From Candidatus Nanosyncoccus alces (lineage in GTDB: Bacteria; Patescibacteriota; Saccharimonadia; Saccharimonadales; Saccharimonadaceae), in assembly GCF_004138395.1 (NCBI RefSeq), contig NZ_PRLM01000002.1, positions 1 through 64,000 of the forward strand: a stretch of 64,000 nucleotides of DNA, given 5' to 3'. A program made the translations under genes and the position numbers. This document shows, in pieces, positions 2,004 through 9,773 of the stretch. Position 1 is the first letter of the stretch, and each line of letters opens with the position of its first letter. Below the pieces are notes generated by a model. It was not told the DNA's origin and did not search any database. It worked only from the letters and a program-made list of their open reading frames with translations.

Positions 2004-2111
2004 CATCTACTTGGGCACAATCGGGTTTTGAAAGTTATTGTGCAGAAAATAGAGGTGGGATTTTTTCTTGACATGAAACGGTGAAAAATGTTTTAAGATA
2101 AGCATTTTCAG

Positions 2112-2142
2112 ATCTAGTATTATTCTAGATTTGGAATATAAT
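2112..2142 (+). promoter_or_regulatory. Promoter with inverted-repeat operator before the R-M operon
   Basis: ATCTAG (2112-2117) and CTAGAT (2125-2130) form a perfect 6-bp inverted repeat with a 7-base spacer. A TATAAT -10 box lies at 2137-2142, so the repeat covers the expected -35 region. A GTGAGG ribosome site precedes ATG 2167. The first gene has an N-terminal HTH domain, so self-control through this repeat is a reasonable inference. The left arm is preceded by G, making GATC at 2111-2114, a site the system itself would methylate. Confidence 0.5.
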
Positions 2143-2166
2143 AGTAAATAGAACAAGTGAGGTAAA

Positions 2167-3231
2167 ATGAATTATATTTCAGCAAAAGAAACTGCTACAA
2201 AATGGGATATCTCTCAACGAAGAGTAGCTACTTTATGCTCAGAGGGGCGCATTATCGGTGCTATGTTCGTCGGAAATTCATGGGTAATTCCATGCGATGC
2301 CGTAAAGCCAATAGATGCACGAACAAAAGCCGCATCCTTAATTAATAACGAAGCAAAGCCATTTCTGAAATGGGCCGGCGGTAAAGGACAACTGCTTAAA
2401 GAAATCGAGCAATATTACCCTTTCACCAAAGACGTTACTATCACAAAGTACGCAGAACCATTTGTTGGCGGTGGTGCAGTACTTTTCGACATTTTAAATA
2501 AATATGAACTTCAGGAAGTCTATATTAGCGATATCAATGCAGAGCTCATAAACACGTACACGATAATCCGGGATGATATTGATACACTACTGGACGTTTT
2601 AAGGCGATTTGAGGGCGATTACCTAGCATTAGACAACAGCGGACGCAAGGAAGCCTATCTCGCCAAGCGTGCGCATTTTAACGAGCTTAAGAGCAAAAAT
2701 GAAAACAGGGTTGAGTTAGCCGCCCTAATGATATTCCTTAACAAAACCTGCTTTAACGGTTTATATCGCGTAAATCGCAAAGGTGAATATAACGTACCGA
2801 TTGGCGCATATAAGAACCCGCTCATTTGCAACGAGCACAATCTAAAGGCTGTATCTAAAAAATTACAAAACGTAAAGATAGTATGTGGCGACTACAAAGA
2901 GTCTGGTGATTTTATAGACGATAAGACTTTTGTATACTTTGATCCGCCATATCGCCCACTGACGCCAACCGCCAACTTTACGTCATATACAGAGGGTATG
3001 TTTGACGATAAAAACCAGCTAGAACTTGCGAAATTTGTTCAGGAGCTAGATCAAAAAGGTGCCAAGATAGTTGCAAGTAATTCTGATCCGAAGAATACCA
3101 ACGAAGATGATAATTTCTTCGATGACGCCTACGCAAAACAGAATATCAAACGCGTGTCTGCAACGCGTATGATAAATCGAAATAGTGACAAACGTGGAAA
3201 AATTAACGAATTATTAATATCAAACTTTTAA
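2167..3231 (+). CDS. HTH-fused Dam-class DNA adenine methyltransferase (DpnII-type M1)
   Basis: 354 residues. Residues 1-50 look like an excisionase/MerR-type winged helix (ISAKETATKWDISQRRVATL, later GNSWVIP). Residues 65-354 are an alpha-class (D12) N6-adenine methylase: FLKWAGGKGQLL (about 68-79) is the SAM-binding motif I, YAEPFVGGGAV follows, and DPPYRPLTPT (about 258-267) is catalytic motif IV. M.DpnIIA/Dam enzymes methylate adenine in GATC and are about 280 residues long, so the HTH part is an added domain. The DpnII-like nuclease starts 13 bases downstream. The fused HTH may control the operon through the inverted repeat at 2112-2130. Confidence 0.9.
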   Translation: MNYISAKETATKWDISQRRVATLCSEGRIIGAMFVGNSWVIPCDAVKPIDARTKAASLINNEAKPFLKWAGGKGQLLKEIEQYYPFTKDVTITKYAEPFVGGGAVLFDILNKYELQEVYISDINAELINTYTIIRDDIDTLLDVLRRFEGDYLALDNSGRKEAYLAKRAHFNELKSKNENRVELAALMIFLNKTCFNGLYRVNRKGEYNVPIGAYKNPLICNEHNLKAVSKKLQNVKIVCGDYKESGDFIDDKTFVYFDPPYRPLTPTANFTSYTEGMFDDKNQLELAKFVQELDQKGAKIVASNSDPKNTNEDDNFFDDAYAKQNIKRVSATRMINRNSDKRGKINELLISNF

Positions 3232-3244
3232 AGAAAGGAGCAAA

Positions 3245-4099
3245 ATGAAAAGAAATTTTAACGAATGGCTAGGAGAGTTTCGAGAAAGCATTGCCGACTA
3301 TGGCTATTATATCGATTTCCCGAAGATTCACAAAAACGTAGACGCTATCAAGGTAGAATTAAACATTCTAAACGCGCTTGTAGGCTCACAGAACATTGAG
3401 CAAGAATTCGACGACCTTATTGCAAAATATCCAGAAACGTTAAAGTGCATTCCTATTTTATTGGCAGTTCGTTCTAATGAAATATATGCGATAGATGAAG
3501 ATGGCGAATATAACTACAACTTCAGTAAAATGAACTATTCTGCCGAACAATATAAGGTATTCATGCGAAAGACTGGTCTATTTGACCTTATTGCAAATCA
3601 TATCATTAGTAATCTAGTAGATTATGCCACCGGCGTAGAAACTGGCCTAGACTCCAACGGTCGCAAGAATCGTGGTGGTCATTTGATGGAGAATCTCGTA
3701 GAGGGTTATATCCAAAAAGCCGGATACGTTAAGGGCGAAAATTACTTTAAAGAGATGAATCTTAGCGAAATCGAAAATAAATGGAACATCGACCTTTCTG
3801 CTATCTCTAACCAAGGCAAAGCCGAAAAACGATTTGATTTTGTAATTAAAACCAATGACAATATTTATGGAATTGAGACAAATTTCTATGGTAGCGGTGG
3901 CTCCAAACTTAACGAAACGGCCCGTAGTTACAAAACACTTGCACTTGAAGCTAAAACGATAGACGGCTTTAAGTTTGCATGGTTCACCGACGGAAAAGGC
4001 TGGAATAGCGCTAGAAACAACCTCGAAGAAACATTTGATGTATTGGATGACGTTTACAATATTAATGACCTCGAGAGTGGCGTAATCGGGAGGTTTTAG
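3245..4099 (+). CDS. DpnII family type II restriction endonuclease
   Basis: 284 residues, full length for R.DpnII-like enzymes, which cut unmethylated GATC. Recognisable family blocks: KNRGGHLMENLVEGYI (about 141-156), then KRFDFVIKT, then YGIETNFYGSGGSKLNETAR and FAWFTDGKGW near the C-terminus. The IETNFY block with the preceding RFDFVI is likely to hold the metal-binding Asp/Glu residues. ATG 3245 follows the ribosome site AAAGGAG. The gene sits between two methylases, as in the pneumococcal DpnII locus, which carries the same three functions in another order. The sequence appears intact. Confidence 0.92.
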   Translation: MKRNFNEWLGEFRESIADYGYYIDFPKIHKNVDAIKVELNILNALVGSQNIEQEFDDLIAKYPETLKCIPILLAVRSNEIYAIDEDGEYNYNFSKMNYSAEQYKVFMRKTGLFDLIANHIISNLVDYATGVETGLDSNGRKNRGGHLMENLVEGYIQKAGYVKGENYFKEMNLSEIENKWNIDLSAISNQGKAEKRFDFVIKTNDNIYGIETNFYGSGGSKLNETARSYKTLALEAKTIDGFKFAWFTDGKGWNSARNNLEETFDVLDDVYNINDLESGVIGRF

Positions 4100-4104
4100 T
4101 CTCT

Positions 4105-4875
4105 ATGCCCGACAAGAAAAAAGAAATAAAGAAATGGGGGCCAGACGATTTTGAACTAGAAATGACTAGCGTCTGGAGTTTCCCCAATCGTGGTAACTGG
4201 GCTACCCACGATGCGAAATGGCGCGGAAACTGGTCGCCATATATACCGAGAAATATTTTACTTCGCTATTCAAAAGAGGGCGATTGGGTATTAGACCAAT
4301 TTGCCGGCGGTGGCACTACGCTAGTAGAAGCAAAACTATTAAACCGCAACATAATTGGAATGGATGTTAATCCGACCGCACTTAAAAGATGTCGCGAAAA
4401 AGTCAAATTCAAACATGAGGGTGCAGATGGCATAGTTAAGGTATCGAAATGCGACGCGCGTAATCTAAAACCAATTCCGGACGAAAGCATTGACCTAATA
4501 TGCACGCATCCACCATATGCAAATATCATTCATTACAGCGAGGGGCAAGATATTCCACAGGATTTATCAAACTTTAAAGTTAATGATTTTCTAGAACAAA
4601 TGAAAAGTGTAGCGTCAGAAAGCTACCGCGTATTAAAGTTTGGCAAATTCTGCGCAATTCTAATGGGCGATACGCGCCAAAAAGGCCACGTAATTCCACT
4701 AAGCTTTAAGACGATGCGAGTATTCGAAGATGCAGGTTTCAAGCTAAAAGAAATCATTATGAAAGAACAACATAACTGCCGAGCGACCGGATATTGGAAA
4801 ACGAATAGCATAAAGTATAATTTTCTTTTGCTAGCGCACGAATATTTATTTATCTTTGAGAAGGAGAAGAAATAG
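4105..4875 (+). CDS. Second DNA methyltransferase of the R-M set (N-4/N-6 type)
   Basis: 256 residues. Motif I is VLDQFAGGGTTLVEA (about 62-76) and the catalytic motif is THPPYA (about 134-139), in the order catalytic motif after SAM motif. Motif THPPY differs from the DPPY of the first enzyme; it fits PF01555-type methylases acting on adenine N6 or cytosine N4. In DpnII systems a second methylase (DpnA) protects incoming single-stranded DNA, and this gene stands in that place, though homology to DpnA is not certain. Its stop shares one base with the GTG start of the PHP-ATPase gene, so the two may be translationally coupled. Confidence 0.8.
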   Translation: MPDKKKEIKKWGPDDFELEMTSVWSFPNRGNWATHDAKWRGNWSPYIPRNILLRYSKEGDWVLDQFAGGGTTLVEAKLLNRNIIGMDVNPTALKRCREKVKFKHEGADGIVKVSKCDARNLKPIPDESIDLICTHPPYANIIHYSEGQDIPQDLSNFKVNDFLEQMKSVASESYRVLKFGKFCAILMGDTRQKGHVIPLSFKTMRVFEDAGFKLKEIIMKEQHNCRATGYWKTNSIKYNFLLLAHEYLFIFEKEKK

Positions 4876-6992
4876 TGCTTATAGACTTTCACTGCCATAC
4901 AAAAGCTACCAAGAATGGCGAAACGCTATCGAGAAATATACCTAGCCCCCAATTCTTCTGCGAACAAGTAAAGAACGCCAATGTAAAAATGATTGCTATA
5001 ACCAATCATAATTCTTTTGACCTAGAACAATTCAACGAAATTCAAAAAGAAGCGAAGAACGAAATAATAATCTTTCCAGGCATAGAGCTCGACGTAATTG
5101 GTTTGAATAAAGAACGAGGTCATATCGTATTTTTCTACGACAATGCAAAGGTGGACGTTTTCGATAAACAAGTAAAAGAGCTACTAGGTAGCAGAAGTGC
5201 AGACTCTTTTGTGGTAGAAATCGATGAGTTTATCTCTTTTGCTAACAAGCTAAATACTGGCATCATAATGGCCCACTATCATAAGAGAGATGCATTAGAC
5301 GAAAAGTCGCTCTTGAAGATTAGAGATGGTCTAGATAATAAATTTAGATTCTTTTTCGAACCAAGTAATTATCGAACGCTTGGGATAATGATTAACAATA
5401 ATTTTCGAGTTTTAATGGGCTCTGACATACAAGACTGGTCAGACTATCAAAAACAAAAATTTGCCAGCATAAAGCTAGATATTGATTCTTATGACATGCT
5501 CTTTCGGTTTATAAAAAAAGATACTGAGGTAGTAGAAAGCATACTTAATAAATTAAGATATGAAAAAATCCCAATTTCCTATAGCCGAGACAGCAAAAAA
5601 GAAATATGTTTTTATCAAGATGTGAATATTATATTTGGCGAAAAGGGCTCGGGAAAAACGCAAACTCTAGACGAAGTTAAGCAGTATTTTGATGGGCTCA
5701 ATAACAGCGTTTCATACTATTCCCCTCAAAAAGCGAGCGATCATATGAAAGAAAAGTTATCGATTTCTCGAGACGAAAGAAAAAGCAGCTACTACAATAT
5801 TGACGCAAGAAAGAGCGAATTAGATTTTTTAGAGAGCTGGGAATCAACAAAAATCACGAAATTTGACGACTATAAAGAGCATATGCGAACGGCGTCGTTA
5901 AACGCCAATAAGGCAAAGATGCAGATACTAAATATTACCGATGAAGAATTTGGTGAAGATAAGAGCAATCTCGAAGAGACAGAAAAACATCTTAAACTAA
6001 TTAAGAAGTTAAGAGATATTATTGAAGAAATAGCACCAAGCGCATACTTAAAAGATGCCGAGCTCGACAACTTCAATGATTCATTCGATAGATTACGCGA
6101 AAGGATTCTGCAGAAATATAAAGAAGAGCTCGCTAATTCGTTCGGCATAAAGCTCGCCAAGCACTTCGTAAACACAATGAAGGAAATAACAGACAAAAAT
6201 ACTGATTCTAAATCACTACCTAGCACTACTGGTTTTGCTTTGTATGCTAAGTTGTTATTTAAGACAAATAATGCCGCAAATAAAATACTGAGTATCGAAA
6301 ACGAGTCAATAATCGATAAGCCAGAGTTTATTGGAGCGCTAGACAATGGCAAAAAGCTATATAGAAGAAAGAAGGTCCAAGGTTTGTCAAGTGATAGTAA
6401 AGCTGCAGATGGCTTCGAACAAATAACGAATTTGCGCCAAATAAGAAAGGCCTTAGTAGATATAAAGAATCATATATTCGATACGAATTTAGGAGAGTAT
6501 ATAAAGGAATATAAGAATTCAATAGCTTGTTTTGACGATTTTAGTATAGACACGATGATTGGCGTATCTAAATATTTCACGCTTGAAGACGGAAAGAAAT
6601 ATGTTCCATCCACTGGAGAAGAAACGATGATAGCACTAGATGAAGCTCTAAACGAAGAAAGTGACGTCTATATACTTGATGAGCCAGAGAAAAGCCTAGG
6701 AAATAGTTATATAAACGATACTGTCGTAGAAAGAGTTAACTATTTAGCAAAACTTAAGAAAACAATCGTCATAGTAACACATAATGCAAACATTGCTATC
6801 AGGACTTTACCATATCAAACAATTCTGAAGCTATATGATGGCGACTACGCAACATATACCGGAAATCTATATAGTGGTACCCTTAAAGATCTAGATAGCG
6901 GAGAGACAAAAGACTGGCGAGAAGAAAGTATACGAATTCTAGAAGGTGGCAAAGAAGCATTTAATGAGAGAGGAGATATTTATGCTCAATAA
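4875..6992 (+). CDS. PHP phosphoesterase-ABC/SMC-type ATPase fusion (TrlF-like)
   Basis: 705 residues from GTG 4875, with AAGGAG just upstream. Residues 1-190 form a PHP domain: FHCHT (5-9), TNHNS (43-47), PGIELD (68-73), GHIVFF (82-87), AHYH (133-136) and GSDIQDW (182-188) supply the metal-binding His/Asp/Glu set. Residues 245-705 are an ABC/SMC-like ATPase: Walker A GEKGSGKT (255-262), a helical insertion of over 300 residues, Walker B ILDEPEKSLG (about 599-608) and a VTHN switch (about 631). I recall this domain order from proteins annotated as TrlF-family AAA-like ATPases, often in defence islands. A nuclease or phosphatase gated by ATP hydrolysis is inferred. It overlaps the methylase by 1 base and the next gene by 11. 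Confidence 0.82.
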   Translation: MLIDFHCHTKATKNGETLSRNIPSPQFFCEQVKNANVKMIAITNHNSFDLEQFNEIQKEAKNEIIIFPGIELDVIGLNKERGHIVFFYDNAKVDVFDKQVKELLGSRSADSFVVEIDEFISFANKLNTGIIMAHYHKRDALDEKSLLKIRDGLDNKFRFFFEPSNYRTLGIMINNNFRVLMGSDIQDWSDYQKQKFASIKLDIDSYDMLFRFIKKDTEVVESILNKLRYEKIPISYSRDSKKEICFYQDVNIIFGEKGSGKTQTLDEVKQYFDGLNNSVSYYSPQKASDHMKEKLSISRDERKSSYYNIDARKSELDFLESWESTKITKFDDYKEHMRTASLNANKAKMQILNITDEEFGEDKSNLEETEKHLKLIKKLRDIIEEIAPSAYLKDAELDNFNDSFDRLRERILQKYKEELANSFGIKLAKHFVNTMKEITDKNTDSKSLPSTTGFALYAKLLFKTNNAANKILSIENESIIDKPEFIGALDNGKKLYRRKKVQGLSSDSKAADGFEQITNLRQIRKALVDIKNHIFDTNLGEYIKEYKNSIACFDDFSIDTMIGVSKYFTLEDGKKYVPSTGEETMIALDEALNEESDVYILDEPEKSLGNSYINDTVVERVNYLAKLKKTIVIVTHNANIAIRTLPYQTILKLYDGDYATYTGNLYSGTLKDLDSGETKDWREESIRILEGGKEAFNERGDIYAQ

Positions 6993-7314
6993 AACAATAT
7001 ATGTATTTCTCACGAAAGTTGACGATAGCAATACGCTAACATTTAAGTTCGATGACGGCCAAGTTAACATAAATCTCGAATCGAATGATACTAATACTAT
7101 AAAAGAAGTTTTTCAAAGGATAGCAAAAGAGCTATGCGAGAACGATATTGAGCTTGATTATTCTGTAAATGAGGAAAAGATAGATAGCAACAAAGATGGG
7201 CTGTTTATTGATGCTGCCGAAGAATATATTGAGCGGCTTAAGTTAGAAATTGAAAGCTTAAAAGAAGATGAACATCTAAAGATGATTCGATCCAATCAGA
7301 CCGATAATGTCTAG
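6982..7314 (+). CDS. Small partner protein of the PHP-ATPase
   Basis: 110 residues. An in-frame ATG at 6946 exists, but ATG 6982 follows GAGAGGAG at 6967-6974 and overlaps the end of the PHP-ATPase gene by 11 bases, so it is the likely start. The N-terminus is a beta-rich segment (YVFLTKVDD, LTFKFDDGQVNINLE); the C-terminal third is acidic and helical (AAEEYIERLKLEIESLKEDE). No membrane segment and no known motif. The overlap points to production with the ATPase, so a bound regulator, sensor or antitoxin-like partner is possible. Family not recognised. Confidence 0.7.
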   Translation: MLNKTIYVFLTKVDDSNTLTFKFDDGQVNINLESNDTNTIKEVFQRIAKELCENDIELDYSVNEEKIDSNKDGLFIDAAEEYIERLKLEIESLKEDEHLKMIRSNQTDNV

Positions 7315-7325
7315 CTCAGACTTTT

Positions 7326-7622
7326 TCATAGATCCACCGAGCAAACATGCTCTAACCCGAACTTTCGACCTAAGTCATCCCACATAGCGTCCGGCGCATC
7401 TTCGCCGAGAACACGATAAAGCGCATAGTCGTAATCGACAAAAATCTTAGCGACTTCTTGAGGATTCACCATAAGTTGGCAGAAATAGCCGGCAGACGTT
7501 TCGCCCTCGACCATAATTGGGTGGTCTTGCCCGTCTTCATTCGCGACGGATTCATATTCCTCGCGCCATTTGCGAATCTCTTTTTGTACGACCGCGACGG
7601 CATCTTCTAACTTAATAGCCAT
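7326..7622 (-). CDS. Unknown 98-residue protein
   Basis: Starts at ATG 7622 after a clear AGGAG (on the minus strand, at about 7630-7634), so it is a real translated gene. The protein is acidic and mostly helical at the N-terminus (LEDAVAVVQKEIRKWREEYE) and ends in a mixed segment with VDYDYALYRVLGEDAP. It converges with the small partner gene of the PHP-ATPase with an 11-base gap, so it is a separate transcript. I do not recognise the family; an island-encoded regulator or anti-restriction protein would fit the size and charge, without direct evidence. Confidence 0.6.
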   Translation of the reverse strand: MAIKLEDAVAVVQKEIRKWREEYESVANEDGQDHPIMVEGETSAGYFCQLMVNPQEVAKIFVDYDYALYRVLGEDAPDAMWDDLGRKFGLEHVCSVDL

Positions 7623-7935
7623 AATAAACTCCTAAAATGTTTTGCGTATTTAACCTTACCTTCGCAAGAATTGCAAGTTTTCGAACCCGACCAATAACAG
7701 AGATAATAGCAGCTAAAACGCACTCGTTCGCATATCTCCCCACACTTCCAAAGCGCTTATGCTTGGCTTTTTCGAACTTGTGTAATATACTTATGTTAAT
7801 TGCGGCGCAGGCTCTGCGCCTTTCTCGAGTAAGAGGGGGTAGCCCCTCATATTTTATGCACGGACTCTGCGTCACAAGTTACACTTGCCGATAAAATGGC
7901 AACACCTTGGGTGGAGAAAGTAACTAGTACTTTAA
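7623..7935. other. Intergenic stretch before the recombinase, with two hairpins
   Basis: No convincing gene in these 313 bases. GCGCAG (7804-7809) pairs with CTGCGC around GCT, and about 20 bases on GAGGGG pairs perfectly with CCCCTC around GTAG, followed by ATATTTTAT. Together they look like structured non-coding sequence: a terminator for minus or plus transcripts, or recombination-related repeats near the integrase. Frames through this region are short and lack ribosome sites. Confidence 0.5.
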
Positions 7936-8091
7936 ATGCAAAAGGAACAGCCGGTCGTAGAAGACCGAAAAGAAGCCGTCAAAAACCTAGTGCAATTACT
8001 TTGCGCATTGGACGACATAGACGATTCGCCAGACCGCGAGTCCAACAAAGAGAAAGGAGTGTGCGACGACGGAGTAGTTGTCGTGTTCTAA
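7936..8091 (+). CDS. Small acidic protein directly upstream of the recombinase
   Basis: ATG 7936 opens 51 codons ending at TAA 8089-8091, with a stop immediately before the ATG, so the frame is sharply bounded. The product begins MQKEQPVVEDRKEAVKNL, is acidic (LDDIDDSPDRE) and ends in a valine run. It ends 4 bases before the recombinase ATG, an operon-like spacing. No good Shine-Dalgarno sequence precedes it. Small proteins beside serine integrases can be recombination directionality factors; that is only a positional inference here. It may also be chance coding. Confidence 0.45.
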   Translation: MQKEQPVVEDRKEAVKNLVQLLCALDDIDDSPDRESNKEKGVCDDGVVVVF

Positions 8092-8095
8092 AACT

Positions 8096-9754
8096 ATGAA
8101 CAGAATGCTAATAAATGCAAATAGCGGCATAGTTCAGAAGCCACTACGCTACGTTATGTATGTACGTAAATCTTCCGAAGATGCCGAAGCCCAAGCCAAA
8201 TCATTACCAGACCAAATCGCAGATTGTAAAGAATATGCGAATAATCATGGTTTGCTCCTAGTTGGCGAACCGATCCAAGAATCTAAATCCGCGAAGAAAT
8301 CCGGTAACCGTCCACTTTTCTCGCAGATGCTAAAGGATATCGAGAAAGGTAAATACGACGCTATTCTCGCTTGGCACCCAGACCGCTTATCGAGAAATTC
8401 GCTCGAAGCCGGAATGGTTGTTGATATGGTCGATAACGGAGTCATTAAAGACTTACGTTTCCCGACTTTCGAATTCCATAACGATTCAAGCGGCAAGCTA
8501 ACGCTGAACATGCTCTTTGCCCTATCAAAGCAATATTCAGAGCATCTATCCGAGAGCGTGCAACGCGGCGTCGATTCTAACCTCGAACAAGGCAAGTCCG
8601 GCGGTATGCCAAAGTGGGGCTATATTAGAGACGACGTGTCCGGTTATTACAAACCAGACAAGAACTTCAAGATGATCCAGAAAGGTTGGCAAATGATTCT
8701 AAACGGCGCGTCACAAATGGAAGTCTATCGCTACTGGAAGATGAATAATGTAGAACGTTCTACAAAACTATCGCGCCGAAATAAGCATGTCAGAAGCTAC
8801 GGCGTCTGCGAAAGCACCGCGAACCGCATCTTCCACGATCCGTTCTACTATGGAATTCTCGAACAGGGCCGGAGCTGCGTAGACTTGCGTGTCGTAACGC
8901 CAAACTTCAAACCAATGGTAACTGAAGAAGAATTCAACCAAGTACAACACATGTTTAGAAAAGACCGCGGCTCGATCCAATCTTCCTGCTACGAGAACCA
9001 AAAAGCCACACATGGCAAATACTTCTTGCCGTTCCGCCACCTTATCAAATGCTCGGTGTGTGGCCACTATATGATTCCGGCCAGAAACCGCGGACATTCT
9101 GGCACGTATTACCTTAACTACCGTTGCCATAACAAGGCTTGTACGCGCCCAAAGAACAATGTACGCATGCATGTGATCATGGACCAACTCTACGAAGAAT
9201 TTGGTCGTATCAGCCAGAAATACGATTTTACAAGCTTTATCGACGATATGAGCGAATATGCTGACAAGAAGATGCAAGAGTTTGCCGTCGAAAAACACGA
9301 GCTACTCGGCCAGAAAACACAGAAACAAAGAAAAATCGACGACCTCGCCGAAAAGTATGCCGAACTTGACAAAGAATCGCCAAAAGCCGTCAAAGACAAA
9401 CTCAAAAAGGACATGGCGGATTTGCAAAATGATGTTGTAAATATAGACGAAAGAATCAAGCAAATTGAAGCTAAAATCAAGAATCCTGAAAAATTACGCA
9501 TGACCATCGAAAAGTTTTCGAACTCGCTAAATTCGCTAATTAACAGGTTAGAAAAAGGAGATCTCGTTGAAAAGGACATTTTAGTCAGAAATATGGTTTC
9601 GAACCTTGAAATTGATGCACAAAAAAGGGTGATTTACAGATATAAATCACCATTTAATTTCCTATTTGAACCTGAGTTTTCCACAGGTTCCCCTGTTGGT
9701 GAGCCGGGTGGGACTCGAACCCACGACACCAAGCTTAAGAGGCTCGTGCTCTAA
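8096..9754 (+). CDS. Large serine recombinase (island integrase)
   Basis: 552 residues from ATG 8096. The N-terminal resolvase domain has YVRKSSEDAEAQ with the nucleophile probably S26 in the Y-x-R-x-S motif, then WHPDRLSRNSLE, typical of the catalytic fold. A recombinase domain follows, then a zinc ribbon (CSVCGHYM ... CHNKAC, about 318-347) and a coiled coil (about 390-460), the standard large serine integrase order. It sits at the right end of the island, facing tRNA-Lys. The last about 18 residues (GEPGGTRTHDTKLKRLVL) are antisense tRNA sequence, so the natural C-terminus depends on the integration site. No Shine-Dalgarno precedes ATG 8096; TTG 8078 is an alternative. Confidence 0.9.
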   Translation: MNRMLINANSGIVQKPLRYVMYVRKSSEDAEAQAKSLPDQIADCKEYANNHGLLLVGEPIQESKSAKKSGNRPLFSQMLKDIEKGKYDAILAWHPDRLSRNSLEAGMVVDMVDNGVIKDLRFPTFEFHNDSSGKLTLNMLFALSKQYSEHLSESVQRGVDSNLEQGKSGGMPKWGYIRDDVSGYYKPDKNFKMIQKGWQMILNGASQMEVYRYWKMNNVERSTKLSRRNKHVRSYGVCESTANRIFHDPFYYGILEQGRSCVDLRVVTPNFKPMVTEEEFNQVQHMFRKDRGSIQSSCYENQKATHGKYFLPFRHLIKCSVCGHYMIPARNRGHSGTYYLNYRCHNKACTRPKNNVRMHVIMDQLYEEFGRISQKYDFTSFIDDMSEYADKKMQEFAVEKHELLGQKTQKQRKIDDLAEKYAELDKESPKAVKDKLKKDMADLQNDVVNIDERIKQIEAKIKNPEKLRMTIEKFSNSLNSLINRLEKGDLVEKDILVRNMVSNLEIDAQKRVIYRYKSPFNFLFEPEFSTGSPVGEPGGTRTHDTKLKRLVL

Positions 9755-9773
9755 CCAGCTGAGCTACCGGCCC
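9697..9773 (-). tRNA. tRNA-Lys (anticodon CTT), probable island attachment site
   Basis: 77 bases with encoded CCA (9697-9699). The acceptor stem is GGGCCGG with CCGGCTC (one G-U pair), the D arm GCTCAGCTGGTTAGAGC, the anticodon loop CTCTTAA giving CTT (reads AAG), and the T arm GTGGG-TTCGAGT-CCCAC. Its 3' end faces the island, and the integrase frame ends inside it, so the 3' part is probably the attachment core. A partial copy of this 3' end is expected at the far (left) island end, outside the window. Confidence 0.95.

Follow-up and report, generated by a model that had tools for sequence, protein, structure and literature searches.

A predicted GATC-type restriction-modification cassette of Candidatus Nanosyncoccus alces carries, in an exchangeable slot, a PHP-ATPase gene pair that occurs autonomously in other bacteria

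Introduction

Type II restriction-modification (R-M) systems of the DpnII/MboI kind target GATC and comprise a Dam-class methylase, a DpnII-family nuclease, and a second methylase. In the Firmicutes plasmid sets whose annotation we examined, the order is methylase-methylase-nuclease. Here we analyzed 64,000 nucleotides (nt) of Candidatus Nanosyncoccus alces, a member of the Saccharimonadales (contig NZ_PRLM01000002.1, positions 1 to 64,000 of the forward strand), hereafter called the window. Unlike those plasmid sets, the window has the order methylase-nuclease-methylase (genes M1, R, and M2), and M2 runs into a gene pair, A and B, that encodes a PHP-ATPase and a small partner. A literature search for DpnII in Saccharibacteria found no paper.

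Several described systems resemble the A-B pair in part. The classic restriction guard is PrrC, which is embedded in the type I operon ecoprrI (PMC12707154). AriA of PARIS (AriA-AriB) senses anti-restriction proteins (PMC11455837), and BREX systems are reported to recruit PARIS-like modules (PMC12839542). In the literature that we found, Ppl is the one PHP-ATPase tied to phage resistance (PMC13152194). PADLOC also models a candidate system, PDC-M49, for which our literature search found no paper.

We propose that the window probably holds two independent defense units on an integrative island, namely, a mobile GATC R-M cassette and, in an exchangeable slot, the autonomous pair A-B. The first unit would consist of its own promoter, a Dam methylase with a helix-turn-helix (HTH), the DpnII nuclease, and the second methylase, ending in the slot behind M2, and a defense gene arriving at the slot would become the last cistron of the operon.

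Results

The slot behind M2 takes unrelated payloads

The initial annotation described five plus-strand genes between 2167 and 7314, separated by gaps of 13 and 5 nt and then by overlaps of 1 and 11 nt, and this layout is present (Table 1). The R-M set is tightly co-oriented with the PHP-ATPase pair, and both halves resemble defense genes. The five genes are real, because M1-R-M2 and A-B each recur elsewhere in the same order and the catalytic motifs are intact. The further proposal of a fixed five-gene unit did not hold, since the DpnII core recurs without A and A-B lives elsewhere without DpnII genes.

Table 1. Features of the cassette, its slot, and the adjoining island DNA (positions in the window; scores of the form 1.7e-83 are E-values)
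Feature	Position	Strand	Details
Predicted promoter/operator, left edge of the conserved cassette	2109-2166	+	AGATC, dyad, TATAAT box
M1, Dam/DpnM-family adenine methylase with N-terminal HTH extension	2167-3231	+	354 amino acids (aa); TIGR00571 1.7e-83, D12 5.7e-62
R, DpnII-family restriction endonuclease	3245-4099	+	284 aa; Pfam DpnII PF04556 9.7e-110
M2, second methylase, last gene of the conserved core	4105-4875	+	256 aa; N6_N4 methylase 1.5e-25
Slot junction	4875	+	TAG stop of M2 and GTG start of A share 1 nt; AAGGAG (Shine-Dalgarno) within the last M2 codons
A, PHP metallo-phosphoesterase domain (~1-215) fused to an AriA/Rad50-like ABC ATPase	4875-6992	+	705 aa, GTG start
B, small partner of A	6982-7314	+	110 aa; matches no family
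Conserved island-backbone open reading frame (ORF), directly behind the slot	7326-7622	-	98 aa; 95% identical in G100
Serine recombinase	8078-9754	+	reaches into tRNA-Lys with its 3' end; G055 has a 97% identical copy at this tRNA
tRNA-Lys(CTT), probable island integration site	9697-9773	-	

Searches of the genus and the family found R in 9 of 174 and 14 of 394 genomes, respectively, counting that of the window. In the other genomes with R to which both the R and the A searches extended, A was not found. Eight cassettes, the window's included, are readable past M2. Their M1, R, and M2 are ~71-98% identical, and the payloads behind M2 are mutually unrelated. The window carries A and B, joined to M2 by a 1-nt overlap, and the seven others bear different genes or nothing in this place: Shedu SduA (6.1e-113), attached by an ATGA overlap, plus a 322-aa gene in G033; a DUF2726 nuclease-like gene (1.2e-25) in G025 and G422; an AbiJ/Abi_C gene (3.4e-13 and 1e-15, respectively) in G055; an OLD/AriA-like ATPase (5.3e-48) in G438; and a DUF2268 protease (4e-25) after 65 nt in G226. 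The slot of G100 is empty, and the 98-aa backbone ORF follows within ~130 nt of M2 with no A or B between. The content of the slot is therefore swapped while the core is kept.

The eight cassettes begin to differ at the stop codon of M2, where their 3' tails diverge. M2 always ends in ...AHEYLF(I/V)F(E/K)K, followed by 0 to 4 residues specific to the payload, and the codons of these residues can contain the Shine-Dalgarno sequence of the payload. In five payload types the junction lies at the M2 stop or at most 20 nt from it. In a distant cassette (G476; core 40-56% identical), the gene for an OLD-like ATPase, a relative of the payload in G438, is convergent to M2.

The conserved unit begins at a GATC-containing promoter

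At the left edge, the predicted promoter holds a dyad, TTTCAGATCTAGTAT/ATTCTAGATTTGGAA, at 2106-2136. AGATC is invariant in all 10 aligned cassettes, and the dyad holds GATC in each of them. Across the 38 nt that start at AGATC, the other cassettes match the window with an identity of 0.74-1.0; upstream of AGATC the identity is 0.30-0.42 in every compared cassette but G033, against 0.26 for random pairs. Since homology starts at AGATC and ends at the M2 stop, the conserved unit extends from the promoter to the M2 stop. The HTH-like N terminus of M1 is present in the aligned cassettes that have the promoter GATC, and the distant M1 copies (G476, G417, Fusobacterium, and IMG/VR) align only from residues 54-64 onward. 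A-B is likely cotranscribed from the GATC promoter, and control of the whole operon by methylation, tail included, is plausible.

The core is a predicted GATC system with a permuted second methylase

The label "DpnII type" given by the initial annotation fits M1 and R and fails for M2. M1 belongs to the Dam/DpnM class with a DPPY motif, and its closest solved structure is DpnM (2dpm, 2.3e-49). Its N-terminal HTH, which sets it apart from the DpnII/MboI methylases, matches HTH_17 weakly (19.9 bits, under the 27-bit cutoff). R is a DpnII-family endonuclease by its PF04556 match, and full-length copies in related genomes are 78-98% identical. From the family membership of M1 and R, the cassette is a predicted GATC-type R-M system.

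M2 is 87-98% identical in close cassettes. Its S-adenosylmethionine motif I (FAGGG) precedes the catalytic motif IV (THPPY), a permuted order that is the reverse of that in the DpnA-like methylases of staphylococcal and lactobacillar DpnII sets, and in BLAST comparisons with these enzymes the two halves align swapped. The motif order rules out that M2 is a DpnA-like methylase, in which motif IV comes before motif I. The nearest relatives of M2 are in the related cassettes and in Fusobacterium (72%); others, ~30% identical, are on plasmids of Vibrio and other bacteria.

A few further observations concern the core. In the otherwise close cassette of Fusobacterium vincentii (L106), ~860 nt (7837-8700) lie between R and M2. 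GATC is scarcer in the window than in dinucleotide shuffles (166 versus 225; standard deviation, 13.6), a count that covers the window alone. One DpnII relative was found in the viral collection (an IMG/VR contig) and one in the phage collection (an unverified fecal "Bacteriophage sp." clone).

A and B form an autonomous two-gene module

Scanning one genome for each species, we recovered 39 relatives of A, which span Bacillota, Pseudomonadota, Planctomycetota, Verrucomicrobiota, Bacteroidota, and other phyla. In 38 of them, a small gene of 93-111 aa overlaps A by its first 8-19 nt and has ATG as its start codon in every case, and the same layout is found on plasmids of Photobacterium, Staphylococcus, Enterococcus, and Phaeobacter. 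A mostly begins its own unit, 100-600 nt after the preceding gene. A and B thus constitute an autonomous two-gene module, and B is the dedicated partner of A.

The initial annotation had proposed that the neighbors would be chance ones if A and the small gene were found mainly away from R-M genes, and this is where they are: no homologue of M1, R, or M2 is present in the DNA surveyed at any of the 39 loci (at least 1 kb upstream at 29 of them and at least 3 kb at 25), and another R-M type is present in three. The neighbors of A-B elsewhere are mixed and rich in defense genes, including DRT, AbiEii, AbiL/RloB, SoFic, and R-M types I-III. The pair is also present in two more genomes of the same family. 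In G410 it is by itself, next to a recombinase, and in G281 it lies on the reverse strand within a type I operon, in the order hsdM, a 265-aa gene, hsdS, A (4-nt overlap), B, further genes, and hsdR. In G281 the genes between hsdS and hsdR are A-B, a SocA/Panacea-HTH gene, and others. At three other loci A closely follows an R-M gene or its neighbor: hsdR lies 72 nt upstream in L022 and res 116 nt upstream in L038, and in L034 hsdS is followed by a GIY-YIG gene and, 13 nt further on, by A.

A phage origin was considered and set aside. The single-sequence viral scan gave no match, the alignment scan gave one weak partial match, and the phage collection gave only partial matches for A.

A and B probably act as an ATPase-gated PHP nuclease

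Two PADLOC PDC-M49A models match A over residues 3-704 (8.1e-29 and 5.8e-26), and a profile comparison agrees (3.3e-38). The pair also shares with PDC-M49 the small overlapping second gene. B, however, differs: it has no PDC-M49B match at an E-value of 1 or below (hhalign probability, 0.1), and neither do the partners in L003, L010, L016, and L117, with L116 at 0.00079. The partners in Staphylococcus, Enterococcus, and Phaeobacter do match PDC-M49B. Hence, the window pair represents a divergent sister branch of PDC-M49 in which the partner has diverged or been replaced.

Other PHP-ATPases and ATPase systems are less close. Ppl and TrlF likewise have a PHP domain followed by an ATPase but are single long proteins; A reaches 97.1 bits with the TrlF model, whose cutoff is 350, and has no match at 0.1 to ppl in PADLOC. 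The AriA model matches A (6.8e-07), and among solved structures the ATPase part is closest in sequence to AriA of PARIS (1.7e-9), although only over ~70 residues. PARIS has the two-gene layout in common with A-B and may have a similar ATPase head. It differs in that here the ATPase itself bears the effector as a fused PHP domain, B matches no nuclease, and family scans found no TOPRIM (AriB) match in A or B.

Among 27 sequences, the PHP ligands H6, H8, H45, E71, H83, H134, and D184 and the ATPase residues K261, S579, G581, E582, D602, E603, and H636 are invariant. In the AlphaFold2 model of A (predicted local distance difference test [pLDDT], 86), the PHP domain is nearest to endonuclease Q (EndoQ; Z, 15.9; root mean square deviation, 3.2; 213 residues aligned), followed by RNase AM (Z, 14.4; 183 aligned), and the ABC parts resemble the heads of SMC, Rad50, and UvrA. 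Because several chains score within 2 Z units, the substrate could be DNA or RNA. B is modeled as a small alpha/beta protein (pLDDT, 89.5) and has no Foldseek match in the PDB at an E-value of 0.001 or below. The best fold hit for B is VIA (Z, 4.9), with only RNase-H-like arrangements, a resemblance that means little.

A and B together probably act as an ATPase-gated PHP nuclease. We hypothesize that the ATPase head of A would sense an infection cue, that B, as a regulator, would hold or license the complex, and that an ATP-driven rearrangement would free the PHP domain to cut nucleic acid, be it RNA or DNA. Restriction would act first, and A-B would then act on phage that gets through. A layered defense had been suggested for the locus before; its fixed form fails, and a looser form stands, in which the slot repeatedly takes defense genes and A-B also occurs within a type I operon of the same family.

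Discussion

How closely are the two halves bound to each other? The tight spacing, the common strand, and the 1-nt overlap would suit a single integrated defense system in which GATC cutting signals to the PHP-ATPase. However, the core is followed in other genomes by five different tails or by no tail at all, and DpnII genes are missing where A-B is found elsewhere; this explanation is hardly credible, being largely refuted by the comparative data. At the other extreme, the genes could be chance neighbors in an ordinary defense island, with a slot of no functional or regulatory meaning. Defense genes do cluster, and the mixed company that A-B keeps elsewhere agrees with such an arrangement; we consider it possible, though unlikely, in view of the precise junctions behind M2 in five payload types and of payload Shine-Dalgarno sequences in or next to the last M2 codons, with the M2 end residues remodeled accordingly.

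A-B could also be a guard of R-M systems, of the PrrC/PARIS kind, which would sense phage restriction inhibitors (or a broken R-M system) and shut the cell down with its PHP nuclease. In G281 the pair sits between hsdS and hsdR, as prrC does in ecoprrI, and like PrrC it is an ABC-type ATPase effector inside an R-M operon; its positions shortly behind hsdR, res, and hsdS at the three other loci and the AriA match of its ATPase part point the same way. Embedding in an R-M operon is seen in the window (DpnII) and in G281 (type I), but these belong to a minority. Most A-B loci have no adjoining R-M gene, for which reason we do not prefer this explanation, and several different R-M types would need guarding. 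Moreover, A has a PHP domain rather than an anticodon nuclease, A-B lacks a TOPRIM or HEPN domain, and the resemblance to AriA is confined to the short stretch given above. Taken together, a guard function is possible but rather unlikely.

We therefore favor two independent units, while some observations weigh against them. With eight cassettes, the slot series is small; in G226 the payload is attached loosely and does not belong to the known defense genes. That A-B adjoins R-M genes in a minority of loci, one of them inside a type I operon, fits a closer functional tie than mere riding. In addition, a promoter-like match inside M2 (TTGGAA-16-TATAAT, 4794-4821) could drive A-B separately. Its TATAAT -10 box is not kept in the M2 genes of G100, G055, and G033, and a conserved internal promoter for A-B was rejected on this ground; the match is probably a chance product of the codons.

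The cassette might go beyond two independent units and serve as a platform that couples exchangeable effectors to restriction under one methylation sensor. This idea arises because the promoter dyad holds GATC and M1 combines an HTH with predicted GATC-methylase activity, and we rate it as quite improbable. If it were true, a loss of methylation, when a phage inhibits M1 or the cassette enters a new cell, would derepress restriction together with the slot effector, and a swap of the tail would be a swap of the second line of defense.

What looked like a one-off five-gene curiosity becomes a natural swap series, with the same type II R-M core, several coupled payloads, and one empty version. 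Such a series offers a way to test R-M operons as docking sites for second-line defenses, as has been proposed for BREX and type I loci. Moreover, it defines a module of a PHP-ABC protein and a small partner across many phyla that lies outside the PDC-M49 partner models.

The island and its surroundings

Several copies of the cassette are located in islands with a tRNA and a serine recombinase. The window genome and G055 have the tRNA-Lys site and the recombinase in common and carry different payloads; likewise, G025 (at tRNA-Leu) and G438 have a second recombinase in common and different payloads. The left end of the island in the window lies beyond the start of the contig, which begins at window base 1. 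The frame of the serine recombinase ends inside tRNA-Lys, and its C-terminal residues derive from the tRNA attachment site. In G034 (L086), two recombinases stand at tRNA-Lys, one of them broken. To the left of the cassette, positions 857-1498 of the window encode a hexapeptide acetyltransferase that resembles the Vat streptogramin A acetyltransferases (265.7 bits, under the family cutoff of 300).

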